A DNA stretch of 64,000 nt, from assembly GCF_900119795.1 (NCBI RefSeq), contig NZ_LT634361.1, positions 186,001 to 250,000 of the forward strand, written 5' to 3'. Source of the DNA: Tenacibaculum maritimum NCIMB 2154 (GTDB lineage Bacteria; Bacteroidota; Bacteroidia; Flavobacteriales; Flavobacteriaceae). Each line of letters begins with the position of its first letter. Within the stretch, counting starts at the first letter, position 1. Below, piece by piece: positions 21,992 through 32,165 of this stretch. Below the pieces are notes generated by a model, which did not search any database, was not told where the DNA came from, and saw only the letters and a list, made by a program, of their open reading frames with translations. The translations under genes and the position numbers were made by a program.

Positions 21992-23680
21992 ATGTCAGAA
22001 GAAAAAAAATCATTGAATTTTTTAGAGCAAATTATAGAAGAAGATTTAGCAAGCGGAATGCCAAAGGAAAAGCTACGTTTTCGTTTTCCGCCAGAGCCTA
22101 ACGGATATTTACATATTGGTCATACAAAAGCGATTGGAATTAGTTTTGGTTTGGGGGAGAAATATAATGCTCCTGTAAACCTTCGTTTTGATGATACAAA
22201 TCCAGCGAAAGAAGAGCAAGAGTATGTAGATGCTATTAAGAAAGATATCTCATGGTTGGGGTATCATTGGGAAAATGAATTGTATTCGTCAGATTATTTT
22301 CAGCAGTTATATGATTGGGCAATTCAATTAATAAAGGATGGAAAGGCGTATGTTGATAGCCAAACATCAGAAGAAATGGCAGCGCAAAAAGGAACACCTA
22401 CAAAAGCGGGTACGAATAGTCCGTATAGAAATAGATCTGTAGAAGAAAACTTAGAGCTATTTGAAAGAATGAAAAATGGTGATTTTGAGGAAGGGGAGCA
22501 TATTTTAAGGGCTAAGATAGATATGAGTTCTCCAAATATGTTACTGCGTGACCCTATAATGTATCGCATTTTATATAAAGAACACCATCGAACAGGAAAT
22601 GACTGGAACATTTATCCAATGTATGATTGGACACATGGAGAAAGCGATTATTTAGAACAGGTATCTCATTCATTGTGCTCTTTAGAATTTAAGCCACATA
22701 GAGATTTATACAATTGGTTTAGAGATCACATATATGAATATGGGAAATCAACCTATCCATTAGCACCTAAGCAACGTGAATTTTCACGTTTAAATTTGAG
22801 TTATACGATTATGAGTAAGCGTAAACTCTTAAAACTAGTAGAAGAAGGTATTGTAAAAGGTTGGGATGATCCAAGAATGCCAACGATTTCAGGATTAAGA
22901 CGTAGAGGATACACGCCAGCATCTATAAGAAATTTTATAGAAACAGTTGGGGTTTCTAAGAGAGAAAATGTTATTGATGTAGCTTTATTAGAGTTTAAAA
23001 TTCGTGAAGACTTGAATAAAACTGCAAATAGGGTTATGGGAGTTTTAGATCCTGTGAAAGTTGTGATTACAAATTACCCAGAGGGAGAAAAAGAAATGTT
23101 AATAGCAGAAAATAATCCTGAAGATGAAAATTCAGGAACGAGAGAAGTTCCTTTTTCTAGAGAGATTTACATAGAAAAAGAAGATTTTAGAGAAGAGGCT
23201 AATAAAAAGTTTTTCCGACTGAAGCTTGGCAAGGAGGTTCGTTTAAAAAATGCCTATATTATTAAAGCGGAAAGCTGTATCAAAGATGCGCAAGGAAATG
23301 TTACCGAAATTCACTGCACTTATGATCCTTTAACTAGATCAGGAAGCGGTACTGAAGAAAGTAAGAGAAAGGTAAAAGGAACCTTACACTGGGTTTCTAT
23401 AGAAGATGCAGTGCAAGCAGAGGTTAGAGTTTATGATAGATTATTTTTAGATGAAGCTCCTGATGGGCATAAAGATAAAGAGTTTATGGAATTTTTAAAT
23501 CCTAGCTCCTTAAAAATAATTAATGCATTTGTTGAGCCAAGTTTACAGACAGCTGCAATAGGTGATAGGTTTCAATTTCAACGCCTAGGTTATTTTAATG
23601 TAGATGATGAGACTACAGCAGAGAAGCTGGTTTTTAATAAAACAGTTGGTTTGAGAGATAACTGGGCTAAAAAAAATTAA
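21992..23680 (+). CDS. glnS: Glutaminyl-tRNA synthetase
   Basis: A 562-residue class I synthetase charging tRNA-Gln directly. FPPEPNGYLHIGHTKA carries the HIGH motif, IMSKRKL corresponds to KMSKS, and the C-terminal half is the two-barrel anticodon-binding domain specific to GlnRS. Start at ATG 21992. The gene ends at 23680, immediately adjacent to the stop codon of the convergent lipoprotein gene, with no spacer and no terminator hairpin between them. Confidence 0.97.
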   Translation: MSEEKKSLNFLEQIIEEDLASGMPKEKLRFRFPPEPNGYLHIGHTKAIGISFGLGEKYNAPVNLRFDDTNPAKEEQEYVDAIKKDISWLGYHWENELYSSDYFQQLYDWAIQLIKDGKAYVDSQTSEEMAAQKGTPTKAGTNSPYRNRSVEENLELFERMKNGDFEEGEHILRAKIDMSSPNMLLRDPIMYRILYKEHHRTGNDWNIYPMYDWTHGESDYLEQVSHSLCSLEFKPHRDLYNWFRDHIYEYGKSTYPLAPKQREFSRLNLSYTIMSKRKLLKLVEEGIVKGWDDPRMPTISGLRRRGYTPASIRNFIETVGVSKRENVIDVALLEFKIREDLNKTANRVMGVLDPVKVVITNYPEGEKEMLIAENNPEDENSGTREVPFSREIYIEKEDFREEANKKFFRLKLGKEVRLKNAYIIKAESCIKDAQGNVTEIHCTYDPLTRSGSGTEESKRKVKGTLHWVSIEDAVQAEVRVYDRLFLDEAPDGHKDKEFMEFLNPSSLKIINAFVEPSLQTAAIGDRFQFQRLGYFNVDDETTAEKLVFNKTVGLRDNWAKKN

Positions 23681-25285
23681 TTACTCTACAATAAAAACTT
23701 CATTTATATTCCAATTCGCTCTTAATTTAAGAGCGGTTGGGAAATAAATTACTTTTTCTGGTTGTTCTCTTAACAAGAAGTTACCGGTATCCCAAACATT
23801 ATTTTTATTAGTATCAATAATAGCTCTAATGGTGTATTCTGCTGGTTCGAGTAGTTTGAAATCGATTTTTTGAGAAGCGCTAATACTTTTTGAGTTTACG
23901 ATGGCGTTTCCTTTTCCAAGCAATTGAATAAGCACTGTTTTATTCGTGTTGTTTCTAATATCTAATGTAATGCTACCATAATCTTCTATAGTTTTTGTTC
24001 TAAAATTATAAACTAAAGTATCTTTATTAGAAGTTTGATATAAGTCGGTAATAGCCTTAGGAAACAAAGTCAAACGATAATTTGTTTTTGGTGTTTCATC
24101 AAACAAGACAGCTAATTTGTTAAATTCTTTTTTGTACAATTTATAGTTTATCTTAATAGAATCTTTTTGTACAAGGTGGAATTTTGTGGAGTCTATTTTG
24201 GTGATGGGATTATTTGTTGTTAAAAATAATGTGTCATTTAGTTTTAAGTTTGCATTTACCGTTGAAGAAATCAGTAAAGAGTCTATTTTTTTCTTTCGAA
24301 GCATAACAGTAGTCTCGTCTATAGAGTTACCGTTGCTAACATTAAAATGTAAAGAATCTGCTTGAAAAGGAGTGTACCAATAATGGAGGGTATCTTTTCC
24401 TTTTTCAAACTGAGAGAAATTTTTGAAACTAGCAGGAGTTGTAGTAGTTAAGTTAAGTTTCAGGTGTTTTCTTTTTCCTGTAAACCCAAAAATAATATGG
24501 CCTTTTGAAACTTCTTTTCCTCTTTTGAAATGAAAGGGTTGTACCTCTTTAAAGAGCTTTAAAGGGTTTTTGATAACACTATCTTTAGGTAATTGAATGG
24601 TATCTTTATAAAAAGCGATCTTATCTTCTTTTGGATTAAATAAATAATTCCCACTAATTTCTTTTAAAGCGACAAGTAAATATTTTCCCTTCTTCAGGTT
24701 AGTAAGATTAAAGTTTGTCGTATCTAAGGTACTTGTAACATAATTAGGTTTTTCTTTATATATGATAGAGTCGTTATACAAAGAATCTATTTTATAGAGA
24801 AGTACGCTGGTATTTTTAGGTGCTTTTTCTTTAAAAGCATCCATAACGAATCCTTTTAAGTATAAAGAATCAATATGCTTTCCTGTTGAGAAAATATATT
24901 TAAAACTTTCTAGCTTATTGTTCTCATTATTATCTTGAACAGCGTTACCAAAGTTAAAAGTATAAGTGGTGTTAGGAGCTAAGGTATCAAGAATTTTAAT
25001 AGAAATGTACTTACTAGGAGTTCCTTGAGGAGTAATTATAGGTGCATTTTTCATTGGAGGGGAAATGACCAACTGTTTTTGTAGATCTTTTAAAACTATA
25101 TATTCATCAAAATAAATTTTAATGTTTTTTTTATCAAAGTTAACCGTTTTGTAAGGAGGGTTTGCAGTAACCATTATAGGAGCTTTTTCGTCTTTAGGAC
25201 CACCTTCAGGACGTCCTTTTCTGGCACAATTTGTTAGGAAGTAAATAACAATAAAAAATGATAAGAATAAAAAAAGCCTTTTCAC
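23681..25285 (-). CDS. Ig-like (Big_5 type) domain lipoprotein
   Basis: A 534-residue lipoprotein with lipobox FLTNC (Cys20) followed by a Gly/Lys-rich linker (RKGRPEGGPKDEKAP). Residues about 37-140 form a bacterial Ig-like domain (TANPPYKTVNFDKKNIKIYF ... TLAPNTTYTFNFGNAV) of the kind annotated Big_5. The remainder is beta-rich with repeated Lys/Thr-rich strands and no catalytic motif. The N terminus recalls a conserved Bacteroidota family of unknown function. A comF gene is 63 bases upstream on the same strand. Confidence 0.8.
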   Translation of the reverse strand: MKRLFLFLSFFIVIYFLTNCARKGRPEGGPKDEKAPIMVTANPPYKTVNFDKKNIKIYFDEYIVLKDLQKQLVISPPMKNAPIITPQGTPSKYISIKILDTLAPNTTYTFNFGNAVQDNNENNKLESFKYIFSTGKHIDSLYLKGFVMDAFKEKAPKNTSVLLYKIDSLYNDSIIYKEKPNYVTSTLDTTNFNLTNLKKGKYLLVALKEISGNYLFNPKEDKIAFYKDTIQLPKDSVIKNPLKLFKEVQPFHFKRGKEVSKGHIIFGFTGKRKHLKLNLTTTTPASFKNFSQFEKGKDTLHYWYTPFQADSLHFNVSNGNSIDETTVMLRKKKIDSLLISSTVNANLKLNDTLFLTTNNPITKIDSTKFHLVQKDSIKINYKLYKKEFNKLAVLFDETPKTNYRLTLFPKAITDLYQTSNKDTLVYNFRTKTIEDYGSITLDIRNNTNKTVLIQLLGKGNAIVNSKSISASQKIDFKLLEPAEYTIRAIIDTNKNNVWDTGNFLLREQPEKVIYFPTALKLRANWNINEVFIVE

Positions 25286-25348
25286 AAAAAGAGATTTACA
25301 AATTAAAAGTCAAAAGTAGTAAAACTATGCAGTATTTTTTTACAAAAT

Positions 25349-26041
25349 CTAGTACATTTCAGTATAAGCCATAGTTGCTATGCTAATAGTGATGTTGGGC
25401 ACCTTTAAAAGCTCATTGCAACAAGCTTCAATAGTAGCACCAGTAGTAATAACATCATCAATGAGTAAAATGTGCTTATTCGCTAAAACAGTAGGAGTAT
25501 TTAAAGAAAAGGATGTACTCGTGTTTGAAAATCTATTAAGACGGTGTTTTAAAGTTTGGGTATGGGTCATAGATTTTTTAATAAGGAGGTTAGGATTATA
25601 GGTGATATTTAGTATCCTACTTAAAGATTCTCCAAATAGTGTTAGCTGGTTATAGCCTCTTTTTTTTAATTTTTTAGGATGAAGTGGCACAGGAATGATA
25701 TAATCAATATTGTTGAATTCATTAGATTCCTTTAGCTGGTAACCAAGCCAATTACCAATAAAAGCGCCTATTTTTTGATTGTTTTTGTATTTTAACTCTT
25801 GAATTAAACGTTGCGTAATTCCTTGTTTTTGATAATAAAAGAAAGAAACAGCTTTGTTTATAGGAACTCTTCCATAGAAAGAAGTTACTATTTTATTGTT
25901 AGTATAATCGTTATAAGAAATTATAGGTAGTTTATGCCGGCATTGTATGCATAAAATCAATTCATTTTGTAACAGAGCTTTGCTACAAGTTGCACATGAG
26001 TTTGGGAAAAATAAATAGAATATGTCTTTTAAAAGTTGCAT
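25349..26041 (-). CDS. comF: ComF family protein (phosphoribosyltransferase-like)
   Basis: A 230-residue homologue of ComF, linked to DNA uptake and natural transformation in several bacteria. It has the N-terminal zinc-finger-like CATCSKALLQNELILCIQC and a type I phosphoribosyltransferase domain with DYIIPVPLHPKKLKKRGYNQ and the PRPP loop LLIDDVITTGAT. The start codon ATG at 26041 is 54 bases from the divergent methyltransferase gene. No other competence genes are adjacent, so its role here is inferred from the family. Confidence 0.93.
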   Translation of the reverse strand: MQLLKDIFYLFFPNSCATCSKALLQNELILCIQCRHKLPIISYNDYTNNKIVTSFYGRVPINKAVSFFYYQKQGITQRLIQELKYKNNQKIGAFIGNWLGYQLKESNEFNNIDYIIPVPLHPKKLKKRGYNQLTLFGESLSRILNITYNPNLLIKKSMTHTQTLKHRLNRFSNTSTSFSLNTPTVLANKHILLIDDVITTGATIEACCNELLKVPNITISIATMAYTEMY

Positions 26042-26095
26042 CTTTACAGCATGTTTTTTGAGTATAAAAGTACAAAAACATTATAAATCAGTATT

Positions 26096-26656
26096 TTGAG
26101 TAAGAAATTTAACTTTTTTAGAGAAGCAATTAAAAACTATAAAACATCAGGAACCGTTGTTCCTAGTTCGCGTTATCTCGCAGAAAAAATGTTAAAAAAT
26201 GTTAATTTTGAAGAAGCCAATGTAATTGTTGAATTAGGACCTGGTAATGGAGCTATCACCAATCATATCTTGAAAAAAATTAATAAAGATGCAACCCTAA
26301 TCTGTTTTGAGATTAATGACATTTTTTATGAAGAATTATTGAAAATAAAGCACAAGCAGTTGATTGTGTTAAAAGCATCTGCTGAAAATGTTGATAAAGA
26401 GTTAGAAAAACTAGGCTTTTCTGAAGCAAATCACATTATATCTAGTTTGCCCTTAACCATTATTCCTAAAGAGATTTCTAAAGAAATTTTGAAGAGAAGC
26501 AAGGAAGTGTTATCTACAAACGGACTCTTTATACAATATCAATATAGCCTGTCGTATTATAAGAAACTAAAGCGGATTTTTGGCAGCAATATTTCCTTAG
26601 ATTTTGAGCCTTTAAATTTTCCTCCTGCATTTGTTTATAAATGTGCTAAAAAATAG
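26096..26656 (+). CDS. SAM-dependent methyltransferase, phospholipid N-methyltransferase-like
   Basis: A 186-residue class I methyltransferase. SAM-binding motif I is VELGPGNGAIT, followed by an acidic LICFEIND strand and the SSLPLTIIPKE motif IV. The N terminus (FFREAIKNYKTSGTVVPSS) and overall length match PmtA/rRNA-dimethylase-like lipid methyltransferases. The start is TTG at 26096. That TTG lies within a TATTTTG sequence that could be a promoter element, but no later start keeps the conserved N terminus, so I retain it. The substrate is not certain. Confidence 0.8.
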   Translation: MSKKFNFFREAIKNYKTSGTVVPSSRYLAEKMLKNVNFEEANVIVELGPGNGAITNHILKKINKDATLICFEINDIFYEELLKIKHKQLIVLKASAENVDKELEKLGFSEANHIISSLPLTIIPKEISKEILKRSKEVLSTNGLFIQYQYSLSYYKKLKRIFGSNISLDFEPLNFPPAFVYKCAKK

Positions 26657-26708
26657 TATTTTAGCATAAAACAGATATAAAATCTGTCTGTAAAATTCCC
26701 CTTAATAA

Positions 26709-27608
26709 ATGACAACAGACAAAAAAAACATAGGCTTAATTGCGTTTTTACTGATGCTAATTGTAGCAATTGGGTACCTGTCCTATCAAAATGCAAAAGA
26801 TTATTCTGAGTTGAAAAATGCTTTTGAACTTGAGAAGATCGAGCTTGAATTAGAGTTAGATGATGTTATTAGAGATTATGATAACGCAATATCGAGAAAA
26901 GAAAACATATCAAAGAAATTAAAAGACCAACTATATAAGATAGTACGATTAAGGGATACTATTAAAAGTTTAAAATCATATAATTATGGTTTAATTAGAA
27001 AATATAGGAGAAGAATAGCACGCCTAGAGAGTCAAAACAAAAAGTTGTTTGTTCAAGTAGATTCTTTAAATAATTTGAACAATGAGTTGTTAGCAGAAAA
27101 TGTAACTGTTAAAGAAGAGCTAGGAGAAAAAGAAGAGCTGAATACAAGTTTAGTACGTAAAAATAAATTGCTTTTCAATAGGAAGAAGAACTTAGAAGAA
27201 AAAGTAGCTAAAGCAAAAATTATTAGAACTTCTCAAATTATTGCAATAGCTATGAAAGAAAGTAGCAATGGAAAACTTTCGAGTACTTCAAAATTGAATG
27301 ATATAGGTTTTTTTAAAGTGAGTTTTGATTTGTTAGAAAATAAGTTTGCAGGGAAAGGATTAAAATCTATTTGTATTCAAATTTTAGATGAGAATAGAAA
27401 TATAGTTTCAAGAAAGGGAATCACAGTAATAAGAAATAAATCAAAAATTATATATAGTGACCTTTTTGTGGCAGACTACAGAAATAAAGAAACTGGTTTA
27501 GTTTCCTTAATAAAAGTAGATAGAGAAAATATTCAGCGAGGAGTATATACTATTAAGGTTTTTGTTGAAGGGATCTATTCAGGAGAAACCATTGTAAAAC
27601 TTCGTTAA
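26709..27608 (+). CDS. Membrane-anchored coiled-coil protein, paralogue 1
   Basis: I do not recognise a named family. The 299-residue protein has one N-terminal membrane helix (about 8-26), then roughly 140 residues of heptad-rich coiled coil with a basic RKYRRRIARLE patch. A beta-rich C-terminal domain (about 180-299) holds FDLLENKF, ICIQILDENRNIV and GVYTIKVFVEG. The topology suggests the coiled coil and the beta domain lie outside the cytoplasm. A second gene of exactly the same length and layout begins 36 bases downstream, so this is a tandem duplication. Both lie just before glyS. Confidence 0.8.
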   Translation: MTTDKKNIGLIAFLLMLIVAIGYLSYQNAKDYSELKNAFELEKIELELELDDVIRDYDNAISRKENISKKLKDQLYKIVRLRDTIKSLKSYNYGLIRKYRRRIARLESQNKKLFVQVDSLNNLNNELLAENVTVKEELGEKEELNTSLVRKNKLLFNRKKNLEEKVAKAKIIRTSQIIAIAMKESSNGKLSSTSKLNDIGFFKVSFDLLENKFAGKGLKSICIQILDENRNIVSRKGITVIRNKSKIIYSDLFVADYRNKETGLVSLIKVDRENIQRGVYTIKVFVEGIYSGETIVKLR

Positions 27609-27644
27609 TAATGTAAATTTAATGACGCTTAACCCCCCTATAAG

Positions 27645-28544
27645 ATGACTTATAACAAGAAAAAAAATATAACAGTTATTGTATTATCATTGCTAGTTTT
27701 GTTCTTATTGTTTTACTCTTTAAAAAAAACAAGAGATTATTCTAATCTAGATACGATATTTCAGGAAGAAAAAAATGAGTTAAAAAATGAGTTAAGCGAA
27801 ATTATCAAAGATTATACAGATGTTGTTGTAAGGAAAAAGAATTTATCTAAAAGACTTAGAATAGAGCTTAAAAAAATGATAGATTTAAGAGATTCTGTGA
27901 AAAATATAAATGTTAAAAACTATAAGCTAATAGGAAAATATAGAAGGAAAATTATCACATTGGAGCGTCAGAATAGAAATTTATTTGCAAAAGTAGATTC
28001 GTTAAATGTCTTAAATGATGATTTGAAGCAGGAAAATATAGTAGTAAAGGAGGTTTTAAACCAAAAGAAATCAATTAACGAGACTCTCAAAAAAGAAAAT
28101 AGGTTACTCGAAGAAAAACAACGAATATTACAAGCTAAAGTGGCTGGCGCGGGTATTTTGAAAACAGGGTCTATAAAAGTAGCAGCAGTAAAAGAAAGAA
28201 GTAGTGGAAAATTAACTATCACTTCGAAATCTAGAAGAACAGACGCTTTTAAAATTAATTTTGACCTATTAGAAAACCCGTTTTCTGAAGCAGGAAGTAA
28301 ACATGTCTATATTCAAATTAAAGATGAGGATAAAAATGTTGTAGCGCCAAAAGGAAAGATGAAGCTGAAAAATGGAAGCAATGTAGTTTATAGCGATTCT
28401 ATTATCGTAAATTATACAAACCATAAGTTGAGCTTATTGTCTTTAGTTTTAGTAAATAGGGATAATATAAATAAAGGTAAATATACTGTTAGTACATTTG
28501 TAGATGGTGCTTTTTCAGGAAATACAACATTGAAGCTAAAGTAA
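27645..28544 (+). CDS. Membrane-anchored coiled-coil protein, paralogue 2
   Basis: A 299-residue sister of the gene before it. It has the same order of N-terminal membrane helix, coiled coil (GKYRRKIITLERQNRNLF matches the partner closely) and beta domain (FDLLENPF, VYIQIKDEDKNVV, GKYTVSTFVDG). The two proteins share motifs throughout but have diverged widely in the coiled coil, so the duplication is not recent. Function is unknown, and possible hetero-oligomer formation is inference. A strong terminator follows the stop codon. Confidence 0.8.
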   Translation: MTYNKKKNITVIVLSLLVLFLLFYSLKKTRDYSNLDTIFQEEKNELKNELSEIIKDYTDVVVRKKNLSKRLRIELKKMIDLRDSVKNINVKNYKLIGKYRRKIITLERQNRNLFAKVDSLNVLNDDLKQENIVVKEVLNQKKSINETLKKENRLLEEKQRILQAKVAGAGILKTGSIKVAAVKERSSGKLTITSKSRRTDAFKINFDLLENPFSEAGSKHVYIQIKDEDKNVVAPKGKMKLKNGSNVVYSDSIIVNYTNHKLSLLSLVLVNRDNINKGKYTVSTFVDGAFSGNTTLKLK

Positions 28545-28563
28545 CCGTAAAAAAAGCTGTTTT

Positions 28564-28599
28564 AAAGTGAATAATACGTAGTTATTCACTTTTTTTTTT
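28564..28599 (+). terminator. Terminator after the coiled-coil gene pair
   Basis: AAAGTGAATAA (28564-28574) pairs perfectly with TTATTCACTTT (28582-28592), then a run of Ts. Confidence 0.88.
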
Positions 28600-28629
28600 G
28601 ATTCTAGTTAAAAAGTTAAATCCTTATTT

Positions 28630-28637
28630 TATTTTTG
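28630..28637 (+). promoter_or_regulatory. -7 promoter element of glyS
   Basis: TATTTTTG matches TAnnTTTG and ends four bases before the glyS ATG, implying a very short or absent leader. Confidence 0.45.
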
Positions 28638-28641
28638 CGTT

Positions 28642-30189
28642 ATGGCAAAACAAGAAGATCAATTTAAGAAAGTGCTATCACATGCAAAAGAGTATGGATA
28701 TGTATTTCAGTCAAGTGAAATTTATGATGGACTAAGTGCGGTTTATGACTATGCTCAAAATGGAGTAGAGTTGAAAAAAAATATTAGAGATTATTGGTGG
28801 AAAGCAATGGTGCAAATGCATGAAAATATTGTAGGTATAGATGCCTCTATTTTAATGCATCCTACTACTTGGAAAGCTTCAGGGCATGTTGATGCTTTTA
28901 ATGATCCTTTAATAGATAATAAAGATTCTAAGAAAAGGTATAGGGCAGATGTTTTAATTGAAGATTATTGTGCTAAGATTGAAGGGAAAATAGAAAAAGA
29001 GGTTAAAAAAGCAGCGAAGCGATTTGGAGATTCTTTTAATAAAGAAGAGTTTCTTACTACAAATGGGAGAGTTTTAGGATATCAAGAAAAAATAAATACA
29101 ATTTTATCAAGAATGGGCAAATCTTTAGAAAATGAAGATTTAGCTGATGTAAAAGCACTGATAGAAGAATTAGAAATTGCAGATCCGCTAACAGGTTCTA
29201 AAAACTGGACAGATGTAAAACAATTTAACTTGATGTTTGGTACTAAATTAGGAGCTTCTGCGGAAGGGGCAATGGATTTGTATTTACGACCAGAAACGGC
29301 ACAAGGTATTTTTGTGAATTTTGTAAATGTTCAGAAAACAGGTCGTATGAAAATACCTTTTGGAATTGCTCAAACAGGAAAAGCTTTCCGTAATGAAATT
29401 GTTGCACGTCAGTTTATATTTAGAATGCGTGAATTTGAGCAAATGGAAATGCAGTTTTTTGTAAAGCCAGGAACTCAAAAAGAATGGTATGAAAAATGGA
29501 AAGAAACTCGTTTGAAATGGCATTTGTCATTAGGAATGGGTAGTGATAATTATCGTTTTCATGATCATGAAAAATTAGCGCATTATGCTGATGCAGCAGC
29601 AGATATAGAATTTAAATTCCCTTTTGGATTTAAAGAATTGGAAGGAATTCATTCTCGTACTGATTTTGATTTAAAAGCTCATGAGCAATATTCTGGTAAG
29701 AAATTGCAATATTTTGATCATGAAGAAAATAAAAGTTATGTGCCATATGTAGTGGAAACTTCTATTGGTTTAGATAGAATGTTTTTAGCGGTGTTTTCTA
29801 AAGCTTTAGAAGAAGAGACATTGGAAAACGGTACTACTAGAACTGTTCTAAAATTACCTGCAGTATTGGCGCCTGTAAAAGCAGCGATTTTACCTTTAGT
29901 AAAAAAAGATGGTTTGCCTGAGATTGCACGTAAAATTGTAGATGATTTGAAATGGGATTTTAACGTGTCTTATGATGAAAAGGATGCCGTAGGTCGTCGT
30001 TATAGACGTCAAGACGCAAATGGAACTCCTTTTTGTATCACTGTAGATCATGATACCTTGGAAAATAATACGGTTACCATTCGTCATAGAGACTCAATGG
30101 AGCAGAAAAGGGTGAACATAGAAGAAGTAAGAGAAATTATAAAACAAGAGGTGGATATGCGTTCTTGGTTGATGAAAATGGAGAGATAA
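28642..30189 (+). CDS. glyS: Glycyl-tRNA synthetase (alpha2 type)
   Basis: A 515-residue class II synthetase charging tRNA-Gly. It is the single-chain form also found in eukaryotes and archaea rather than the bacterial alpha/beta heterotetramer. Visible are LYLRPETAQGIFVNF, AFRNEIVARQFIFRMREFEQ (motif 2), ETSIGLDRMFLAVF (motif 3) and a C-terminal anticodon-binding domain. Start at ATG 28642. It is a single gene, followed by a long AT-rich hairpin. Confidence 0.96.
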   Translation: MAKQEDQFKKVLSHAKEYGYVFQSSEIYDGLSAVYDYAQNGVELKKNIRDYWWKAMVQMHENIVGIDASILMHPTTWKASGHVDAFNDPLIDNKDSKKRYRADVLIEDYCAKIEGKIEKEVKKAAKRFGDSFNKEEFLTTNGRVLGYQEKINTILSRMGKSLENEDLADVKALIEELEIADPLTGSKNWTDVKQFNLMFGTKLGASAEGAMDLYLRPETAQGIFVNFVNVQKTGRMKIPFGIAQTGKAFRNEIVARQFIFRMREFEQMEMQFFVKPGTQKEWYEKWKETRLKWHLSLGMGSDNYRFHDHEKLAHYADAAADIEFKFPFGFKELEGIHSRTDFDLKAHEQYSGKKLQYFDHEENKSYVPYVVETSIGLDRMFLAVFSKALEEETLENGTTRTVLKLPAVLAPVKAAILPLVKKDGLPEIARKIVDDLKWDFNVSYDEKDAVGRRYRRQDANGTPFCITVDHDTLENNTVTIRHRDSMEQKRVNIEEVREIIKQEVDMRSWLMKMER

Positions 30190-30190
30190 C

Positions 30191-30230
30191 AATTTAAATA
30201 CCATCAAATTTTTGATGGTATTTAAATTTT
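30191..30230 (+). terminator. Hairpin terminator after glyS
   Basis: AATTTAAATACCATCAAA pairs with TTTGATGGTATTTAAATT (18-base arms) almost directly after the stop at 30189, followed by Ts. Confidence 0.8.
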
Positions 30231-30244
30231 AAAACCTATTTGAA

Positions 30245-30469
30245 ATGAAAATAATTATAAAAATTCTATTTATAATTTTTATTTTATGGATGGCTTTGGG
30301 AGGATACCTCTTGAATGTTGAGCATCCTAAAGGGCAAATTATAATGGGGTTAGGAGTTTTGTATATGGCTTTTATTTTAATGCCTATATTTATTTATTAT
30401 AGATATAAAGACGGTAAATATAAGAAGTACATACTAAATGATAAGAAAATTAAGGAATGGATGAAATAA
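30245..30469 (+). CDS. Small two-helix membrane protein, hypothetical
   Basis: A 74-residue protein with two hydrophobic segments (about 4-22 and 31-52), a Gly-rich turn, and a short very basic tail (YRYKDGKYKKYILNDKK). Start at ATG 30245; an ATG-to-stop frame with clear membrane character and its own terminator supports a real gene. I do not recognise the family. The basic tail predicts a cytoplasmic C terminus by the positive-inside rule. Confidence 0.65.
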   Translation: MKIIIKILFIIFILWMALGGYLLNVEHPKGQIIMGLGVLYMAFILMPIFIYYRYKDGKYKKYILNDKKIKEWMK

Positions 30470-30501
30470 AAAAAGACTGCCAATTTTGGCAGCCTTTTTT
30501 T
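30470..30501. terminator. Bidirectional terminator
   Basis: CTGCCA and TGGCAG around an ATTT-type loop, with A and T runs on either side. It can end both the small membrane protein gene and the convergent SGNH lipoprotein gene. Confidence 0.82.
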
Positions 30502-30521
30502 ATAATATTGTTTCCTCTTTT

Positions 30522-32165
30522 CTACTTTAAAGTAGGGGAGTAATTTGTTGGGTAATCATCTGCTTTTGCTAAGCCATCTGTAGCTTCCTTAAAGTTAGAG
30601 CCATATTGGTTGTCAATAGCTTCTAGCATCTTATTGGCCATTAGTGCATATCCTCTAGCAGTTAAATGCACCCCATCTAAGCTAATTAAACCACCAAGAA
30701 CGAACTCTGTAGTTAAAATATAGTTATCAAATGCGATCCCATTAGTTGCTGCTTGTTTTAACAAAGCATTGAAATCAACAAAAGCTAATTCTTTAGCTTC
30801 AGAAACGTTTTTAATCGTTTCATTATAGTTATCAGTAGCTTGTTTTACAATTTCTGCTTCCTCTTTTGTTAGCACCCATTTATCAGCTAAAGGTAACGTA
30901 ATTCCTTCGGTAGAAAATTGATTAGCTAATGCTTCTGTAATAAGAGGATTTACATTCATCAGGGCTTCAGCTGCATCTTTATTAACTGTTCCAATAATAC
31001 TGCTACTCGGTAATACTAATAAGTCTTCAGGAGTAGCTGGTCTAGCTTGTCCGTATTGTTGACCTAAAAGCTGAGCTACCAATGGAGCCGCTTGAGCAGG
31101 TAAGCCTAAAGATTGAATGAACCCAATAAAAGCAGTATTGTTAGGATTTCCTAAAACACTACTAATGGTAGCAGATAAGTCAGCTAAATTTTTGTCTTTA
31201 ATCACAACAGGACTTGCTTTTTTAGTCGAAAACTGAACAATTCTGTTCGGTTGATTTATTGCAGGATCTGCGTAAATTTGATTCAATGCTCCATAAACGA
31301 CATTCAGCGTTGGAATTTGTGATGCAAATTCCAGATTTGTAGGGTCAAGAGGAGCGTGAGGAACTGTAGTAAAATAGGGAAATGATGTTACATATGGTAA
31401 ATTTGCTACAACTCCTTTTGCATTAGGAACTTGCGTTAGTGTATTTACAATTGCATTAAAGGCGGTATCAAAGGTAGTTTTAGGAGTAATAGCAGTGGGA
31501 TCTATCCCTCCTGCAATAGCATAGTCGAGCAAATCATTTCCTCCAATCTCAGATAAAGAGAAAAAAGTAGGTTGTTTAGATGCTATTTCAGCAATTAATG
31601 TAGGTTGTGTCGGATTCATTCTTACAAAATACGGGTTTGCTGTTCTCGGTACTGTAGCTAGTCCAGCAGGATTGCCATATCCAGGAGCTAAGAAATGAAT
31701 ACTTTTTGCACCAGGAATTCCATAGTTTTTAAAATTAGGAGCATTTTCTGCAGGAACTCCCACTATTGTACTAGGTAGTTTGTTTAATAAGGTTGGTACT
31801 TTTCCATTAAAATAAAATCTAGGATTAAGGACTACTTGCCCGTTGCTAGACATTCCTCCTGTATTATCGTTCATTAGAGGTTGCGTAAAAGCTTCTCCAT
31901 TCGCCATTGCGAATTTTGAAGACATAATATTAGGAAAAGAATTTTTCTGCCCTGCTTTAAATAAAGCGCCATCAGTAAAACCAGCAGAAAAAGAAGCGCC
32001 TACCGCGATGTAGTTTGAGAAGTCTGCAGAACCTGCTGTTAGAACAACTCTAGGTGGTGCAGGGGTATTATCTAAAATTGGATCTAAATCATTATTTATA
32101 TCACAGGCAACCAATCCAGTAAAAAGGATTGGTAACCAACTGTATTTGAATTTCATTTTTTTCAT
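30522..32165 (-). CDS. SGNH/GDSL-type hydrolase lipoprotein paired with a TonB receptor
   Basis: A 547-residue lipoprotein (lipobox GLVAC, Cys21) with the SGNH hydrolase fold. Block I reads VGASFSAG, with the nucleophile Ser58 in a GAS rather than GDS context. Block III is GGNDLL, and block V is LDGVHLTARGY with Asp497 and His500. The triad and oxyanion residues appear intact, so esterase activity is plausible. A long insertion with many Pro/Asn loops separates the blocks. It lies three bases after the receptor gene in the same operon, so it probably processes or binds the receptor's ligand at the cell surface (inference). Confidence 0.85.
   Translation of the reverse strand: MKKMKFKYSWLPILFTGLVACDINNDLDPILDNTPAPPRVVLTAGSADFSNYIAVGASFSAGFTDGALFKAGQKNSFPNIMSSKFAMANGEAFTQPLMNDNTGGMSSNGQVVLNPRFYFNGKVPTLLNKLPSTIVGVPAENAPNFKNYGIPGAKSIHFLAPGYGNPAGLATVPRTANPYFVRMNPTQPTLIAEIASKQPTFFSLSEIGGNDLLDYAIAGGIDPTAITPKTTFDTAFNAIVNTLTQVPNAKGVVANLPYVTSFPYFTTVPHAPLDPTNLEFASQIPTLNVVYGALNQIYADPAINQPNRIVQFSTKKASPVVIKDKNLADLSATISSVLGNPNNTAFIGFIQSLGLPAQAAPLVAQLLGQQYGQARPATPEDLLVLPSSSIIGTVNKDAAEALMNVNPLITEALANQFSTEGITLPLADKWVLTKEEAEIVKQATDNYNETIKNVSEAKELAFVDFNALLKQAATNGIAFDNYILTTEFVLGGLISLDGVHLTARGYALMANKMLEAIDNQYGSNFKEATDGLAKADDYPTNYSPTLK

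Follow-up and report, generated by a model that had tools for sequence, protein, structure and literature searches.

A tandem pair of predicted periplasmic coiled-coil stalk proteins from a widespread, unnamed Bacteroidota family

Two adjacent genes of Tenacibaculum maritimum NCIMB 2154, here called A and B, are best read as members of a widespread, undescribed and unnamed family of Bacteroidota proteins. They lie in a stretch of 64,000 nucleotides (contig NZ_LT634361.1, positions 186,001 to 250,000), which we refer to as the window and by which all positions are numbered (Table 1). The reading towards which we lean is that A and B are tandem duplicates that form periplasmic coiled-coil stalks, anchored in the inner membrane and topped by an Ig-like head, and that they act as a tether or adaptor. 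The parts of this reading differ in strength. The membrane anchor, the constraint on heptad register and the periplasmic head are well supported, while the role as tether or adaptor is a weaker suggestion, drawn from the predicted geometry and from the OmpA and TonB contexts of relatives.

The gene pair and its family

A preliminary description, made from the letters of the DNA, had pointed to two adjacent genes of equal length 36 bases apart, to the order of membrane helix, coiled coil and beta domain in both products, and to the shared motifs FDLLEN and IQI.DE. All of this is borne out. Both open reading frames encode 299 amino acids on the plus strand with 36 bases between them, FDLLEN occurs in A and B, and the second motif is represented by IQILDE in A and by IQIKDE in B. 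AlphaFold2 predicts the same layout of membrane helix, coiled coil and beta head for the two proteins, with helices at residues 6-63, 69-86 and 93-169 in A (pLDDT 85.1) and at 3-63, 69-86 and 90-169 in B (pLDDT 84.6), and strands at 178-298 in each. BLASTP aligns A and B without gaps at 124 of 271 identical residues (46%, E 1e-76), so their homology is beyond chance. The two have indeed diverged, although the earlier wording of 'strong' divergence was overstated at 46% identity. A genome search identified A and B as the only copies in the window's genome; two further matches to the head (E 0.08 and 0.3) were taken as chance.

Table 1. Features of the A/B locus (positions in the window; residue limits marked ~ are approximate)
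Feature	Position	Strand	Description and basis
Methyltransferase, upstream	26096..26656	+	Related to ornithine-lipid/phospholipid N-methyltransferases; NCBIfam OlsG 99.7 bits, below cut-off 350; synteny
Gene A	26709..27608	+	299 aa; faster-evolving tandem copy
A membrane helix	26730..26786	+	~Residues 8-26; hydrophobic window from residue 8; helix in model
A coiled-coil stalk	26790..27215	+	~Residues 28-169; breaks near 64-68 and 87-92; model, heptad phase, core layers
A extra-heptad site (approximate)	27180..27200	+	Residues ~158-164; present or absent among relatives; alignment and spans
A Ig-like head (predicted)	27216..27605	+	Residues 170-299; model and fold comparison of homologous B head
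Gene B	27645..28544	+	299 aa; more conserved copy
B membrane helix	27666..27722	+	~Residues 8-26; model and hydrophobic window
B coiled-coil stalk	27726..28151	+	~Residues 28-169; Leu at d, Asn at many a positions (110, 124, 131, 145, 152)
B extra-heptad site (approximate)	28116..28136	+	Alignment and spans
B Ig-like beta-sandwich head (predicted)	28152..28541	+	Model and fold comparison
Terminator-like hairpin between B and glyS	28564..28599	+	12 pairs, run of ten T
glyS, downstream neighbour	28642..30189	+	Class II core and anticodon-binding domains; synteny

Neither A nor B scores above the curated cut-off of any Pfam or NCBIfam family, in agreement with the earlier remark that the family has no name. 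When 28 family members were compared with the same collections, only weak matches were obtained, mostly to coiled-coil models (best 4.4e-05 in Pfam and 8.9e-05 in NCBIfam among the families shown, with cut-offs shown for the first member only). We rejected a named-family identity for A and B, since these matches are weak and mostly at the level of the coil. A sequence search of solved structures returned coiled coils, among them a designed protein and the zippers of Max and MafB, and no clear relative of the head. Phage records yielded no homologue, plasmid records two distant ones (Prevotella and Parabacteroides) and a scan of genome contigs one, in Chitinophagaceae. The plasmid homologue from Parabacteroides distasonis (WP_005861467.1, annotated 'hypothetical protein', NZ_OY725771.1 103-1008) lies near TolC, HlyD and ABC transporter genes, and two other loci (L130 and L134) have neighbours that look alike by eye. 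Rfam gave nothing at the gathering score for positions 23000-31000. Our literature searches found no description of such a family, which does not itself prove that none is in print; a paper on the lipocone superfamily matched the search terms, in the excerpt available.

By predicted-structure comparison, residues 170-299 of B resemble Ig-like sandwiches, mostly in GH2 enzymes (best Z 11.1, rmsd 2.2, 97 residues aligned; top rows Z 10-11.1 with 97-103 residues aligned). The aligned GH2 regions are the Ig-like domains of those enzymes. The head of A and B is thus predicted to be an Ig-like beta-sandwich by fold class, a generic fold that many unrelated proteins share and that names neither a function nor a family.

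A profile search detected the family in 270 of 299 genomes and 185 of 203 genera of the window's taxonomic family, and in 30 of the 96 genomes of its genus. Since about two thirds of the latter (66/96) lack it, the family is dispensable in the window's genus. In a phylum-wide draw, 112 of 392 genomes matched, including 50 of the 51 drawn from other orders of the class and none of eight in the sole other family of the same order; 20 weak matches lay elsewhere and, where coordinates were shown, covered the profile in part, mostly in the coil. A search with the head was positive in 66 of 70 sampled genomes of the taxonomic family, once in 34 of them and twice or more in 32.

Pair length and heptad register

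The preliminary description had also taken the exactly equal length of the two proteins as the mark of a pair locked in length by its coiled coil. The genus has 23 intact adjacent pairs, and we examined each of them. A and B agree in total length in only four (G000, G018, G081 and G105), so equality of the whole proteins is not the rule. The coil segment is equal in 15 pairs and differs by 7 or 14 residues in the other eight, and with these mismatches a strict length-lock of A and B was rejected. The part of the claim that stands is the constraint on the coil itself: the span from residue 29 to residue 124 is 95 in 46 of 46 proteins, and the remainder changes by whole heptads, so that lengths in relatives are not freely variable. 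Segment 124-188 measures 64 residues in both A and B in 11 pairs, 57 in both in four, 64 in A and 57 in B in seven, and 50 in A and 64 in B in one. A single loss in B probably underlies the seven 64/57 pairs, and the four pairs that are short in both copies could be due to chance, gene conversion or matching. A and B are often equal in length without having to be, and shared descent accounts for much of this.

The same pattern extends across the family. The span from N124 to K165 equals 34+7k residues in 134 of 138 aligned rows (34 in 84 rows, 41 in 46, 27 in one, 48 in one and 55 in two); the other four rows comprise three short paralogues that lack the N124 anchor (span 23) and one sequence gapped at the K165 anchor (40). 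On a tree of 113 rows from which this region was omitted, at least eight changes of the span are needed, each by a multiple of seven. Register is what is constrained, and coil insertions and deletions come in whole heptads. Heptad-wise length change also has a counterpart in the linkers of phytochrome-linked diguanylate cyclases (PadC), where most length differences are multiples of seven (PMC9587094); those linkers, unlike the A/B coil, belong to cytoplasmic signalling proteins with catalytic output. For the arms of SMC proteins, another study gives length periods longer than a heptad (PMC5344682).

Within the heptads, leucine occupies most d positions and the a positions read mostly I-N-V/I-N-N-L-N-N, where the asparagines of positions 110, 124 and 131 are identical throughout the 23 A and 23 B proteins. 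Leucine at d together with asparagine at a is the pattern expected of a parallel dimer of the leucine-zipper kind. A and B both have this register with leucine at d and polar asparagine at a, and their stalk is probably a parallel dimer, an oligomeric state to which we attach moderate confidence. If straight, an in-register parallel-dimer stalk would reach up to ~21 nm (140 residues at 0.1485 nm). This figure is an upper bound, because the AlphaFold2 prediction interrupts the helix near residues 64-68 and 87-92, with a pTM of 0.52; the stalk may be bent.

Longer coils may also go together with gene duplication. Within the taxonomic family but outside the genus, the extra heptad occurs in six of six rows from loci with a tandem second gene and in none of 55 other rows, as judged for most loci from 1.5 kb of flank. 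At two of the tandem loci, the second gene encodes a chimera with a TonB_C end, described below. The six rows represent two independent lineages, and the window's genus, also duplicated and carrying the extra heptad, would be a third. However, the link is loose within the genus, single-copy loci elsewhere in the class (L124 and L128) show the longer form, and the association could be due to chance.

Duplication and gene neighbourhood

An IQ-TREE phylogeny of 76 rows unites the genus with full support and separates within it a branch of A rows (93/86) from a branch of B-like rows (99/94, starred). The tree of 113 rows, from which residues 128-172 had been removed, likewise has a branch of 20 A rows (97, starred) and one of 32 B-like rows (91), with the 61 rows from other genera outside. 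A single duplication within the genus explains the pair and, since A and B stem from one event, their equal length is mainly common descent. The duplication at L062/L065 is an independent one.

The two copies have fared differently. Among the 30 positive genomes of the genus, 24 have an adjacent pair (in G028 with A frameshifted), four have two copies ~54-64 kb apart, both of which group with B in the tree (G035, G066, G072 and G085), and two have B without A (G008 and G089). Three genomes (G062, G063 and G073) contain a third, shorter paralogue of 247-253 amino acids (L182, L184 and L186, respectively), which lacks part of the coil and likewise groups with B. In 246 of 253 species pairs, A is the less conserved copy (mean identity 49% vs 65%); it has 33 invariant positions over the 23 pairs, against 64 in B. 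For ten close species pairs, dN/dS was 0.05-0.17 in A (eight gave a value, two none) and 0-0.09 in B (all ten); judged by these ratios, both A and B are under purifying selection. In the reading that we prefer, B retains the ancestral role, with A as a faster-changing second copy that is still selected.

Gene order around the pair is conserved in the genus as ComF-type gene, methyltransferase, A, B and glyS. Between B and glyS lies a terminator-like hairpin (z -2.97 for 28545-28640), which a pattern scan did not list; because of this hairpin, A-B and glyS are suggested to be separate transcripts, and the glyS neighbourhood is probably positional. We further inspected 20 loci outside the genus, chosen from hits of the family-wide profile search. 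At 17 of these, glyS follows the family gene on the same strand, at 15 of them directly. Eighteen have a single copy, one has an adjacent pair (L080) and one has a copy beside a TonB chimera, which sits between the family gene and glyS (L092). Adjacent pairs are rare outside the genus, being found at one of these 20 loci, and the head occurs singly in 34 of 66 positive genomes of the family sample; the earlier account had itself named homologues that are usually single copy as an argument against a length-locked pair. At the three loci without glyS the gene adjoins another gene (fumarase by eye), and in at least one of these genomes (G178) a second, more distant copy sits at the glyS locus. 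In four loci fetched for such a second, more distant copy (L219, L220, L222 and L223), that copy is the one upstream of glyS. Neighbours differ in other orders of the class and no partner gene is conserved across families; as the neighbourhood is not conserved beyond the family, we rejected it as a clue to function.

In 30 genomes of the genus that lack A and B, the gene directly before glyS is the methyltransferase in 11 and the ComF-type gene in 16, and the flank contains neither in the remaining three. The upstream methyltransferase was found in 29 of 30 family-positive and 31 of 66 family-negative genomes of the genus (Fisher p 8e-7, kinship ignored). GlyS proteins of the genus (L143-L172) fall into groups of ~90% and ~83% identity to that of the window, with G056 on a long branch, and an exchange of glyS is possible; in G020, glyS reads as two pieces with stops. 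A GlyS tree, used to stand in for the species tree, has few starred branches and implies at least three changes of A/B presence. Losses were not counted from it, because glyS itself may have been exchanged.

Topology, proposed role and alternatives

Several lines of evidence strongly suggest an N-in, C-out topology, in which A and B would be single-pass inner-membrane proteins with a periplasmic stalk and head. The charge asymmetry is weak: in 95 of 138 rows the segment before the membrane helix has more net positive charge than the one behind it, in 29 the two are the same, and 14 rows show the opposite. Domain fusions, few in number, place the stem and head in the periplasm, since relatives join the head to OmpA and lipoprotein-like proteins and the stem to TonB_C. 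In two genomes of one genus (G372, loci L056/L214, and G208, loci L060/L092/L215), the gene beside the family member encodes a homologous stem with a TonB_C end. The stem homology is 39% over 64 residues (E 1e-8) in one case and 31% over 68 (E 8e-7) in another, and TonB_C scores 26.5 bits in one chimera (cut-off 24.6) and 22.6 bits, just below, in the other. Among the matches listed for 149 genomes of the taxonomic family, G208 included, a whole-chimera match occurred in G208 only. The head itself forms the C terminus of a 934-residue PD40-CarboxypepD_reg-OmpA protein in G211 (L198/L217; domains by Pfam, run on this protein only) and of a similar 1024-residue protein in another genus (G130, L216), the two loci having two neighbours in common. 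Both of these OmpA-head genes adjoin an OmpH/Skp-like gene, named by eye. The head also ends a 277-residue lipoprotein-like protein (G137, L199/L218; lipobox by eye).

These contexts invite comparison with known envelope proteins. Like A and B, TonB has a single N-terminal membrane helix, periplasmic reach and a terminal folded domain, and the tandem relative in the two genomes above carries TonB_C on a homologous stem. In contrast to TonB, A and B have an Ig-like head, a predicted beta-sandwich, and Pfam finds no TonB_C match in either at E up to 10. TonB uses a histidine in its N-terminal membrane helix for coupling to ExbB/ExbD, whereas residues 8-26 of A and B contain no histidine by sequence. 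The two OmpA fusions join an A/B-type head to the domain set of PorE-type PD40-CRD-OmpA periplasmic proteins; in PorE, a peptidoglycan fragment sits in the OmpA-like domain (PMC7192894). A and B, unlike PorE, have no PD40, CarboxypepD_reg or OmpA domain, and only this PorE-like head fusion in two genera points to a possible link with type IX secretion or gliding.

Alternative readings concern chiefly the relation between the two copies. A and B could each form homodimers, with A a subfunctionalised or slowly decaying duplicate that has no joint role with B, and we regard this as a serious but less probable alternative to the tethering stalk. It would fit the lower conservation of A in 246 of 253 comparisons, its smaller number of invariant positions (33 vs 64) and the three genomes in which A is lost or broken and B kept. 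However, the dN/dS of A is that of a gene under selection, and the adjacent pair is kept in 24 of 30 positive genomes of the genus, in one with A frameshifted. The hetero-oligomer of the preliminary description, taken as an obligate one with stalks that must match in length, seems unlikely to us: the equal lengths in the window, the equal coils in 15 of 23 pairs (four of them short in both copies), the core pattern common to A and B and purifying selection on both would agree with it, yet the coils are mismatched in eight intact pairs and total length is equal in only four. A g/e charge score is better for A-B than the mean of A-A and B-B in seven of 23 pairs, equal in 15 and worse in one, and neither this score nor the core pattern clearly favours pairing of A with B. 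Furthermore, G008 and G089 have B but no A, the A gene of G028 carries a frameshift, four genomes have two B-side copies ~54-64 kb apart, and adjacent pairs are rare in other genera.

Two other readings would move the proteins out of the periplasm or assign them to translation. A cytoplasmic coil acting on the chromosome or the division machinery could be read from weak matches of the coil to SMC and similar models, but such names follow from coil similarity, and both the positive-inside bias and the TonB_C, OmpA and lipoprotein contexts, which put stem and head in the periplasm, make this location very improbable. Less probable still is a joint function with the neighbouring glyS, despite its position next to the pair in the genus and downstream on the same strand in 17 of the 20 outside loci (15 directly): the terminator-like hairpin precedes glyS, glyS persists beside the methyltransferase or the ComF-type gene in 27 of 30 genomes where A and B are absent, and the gene is sited elsewhere in other families of the class.

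According to the reading that we prefer, an inner-membrane-anchored periplasmic stalk serving as tether or adaptor, the stalk would hold the Ig-like head near the peptidoglycan or the outer membrane, where a putative partner would be bound. A more speculative extension, which we put forward as a long shot, is that the family is a natural, heptad-tuned envelope spacer, in which the stalk would set the height of an Ig-like adaptor above the inner membrane and would be retuned one heptad (~1 nm) at a time, perhaps with lengthening and duplication going together. Lpp (Braun lipoprotein) likewise has a helical spacer that can be altered by whole heptads: in engineered Lpp+14 and Lpp+21, with two and three additional heptads, the periplasm is 3 and 4 nm wider (PMC5736177). 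Lpp differs in being a small, peptidoglycan-linked lipoprotein of the outer membrane, whereas A and B would be inner-membrane proteins with a head, and their length changes are natural.

No Pfam or NCBIfam model is thus reached by A or B, members of a family that occurs in 270 of the 299 genomes sampled from its taxonomic family and in 50 of the 51 sampled across other orders of the class. The OmpA and TonB domain combinations point to where its partner may be sought. If the spacer reading is true, the heads of a pair would stand at the same or at staggered heights; and if the family is a periplasmic spacer, its natural alleles, which differ in length by exact heptads, would make the spacing between membrane, cell wall and outer membrane testable.
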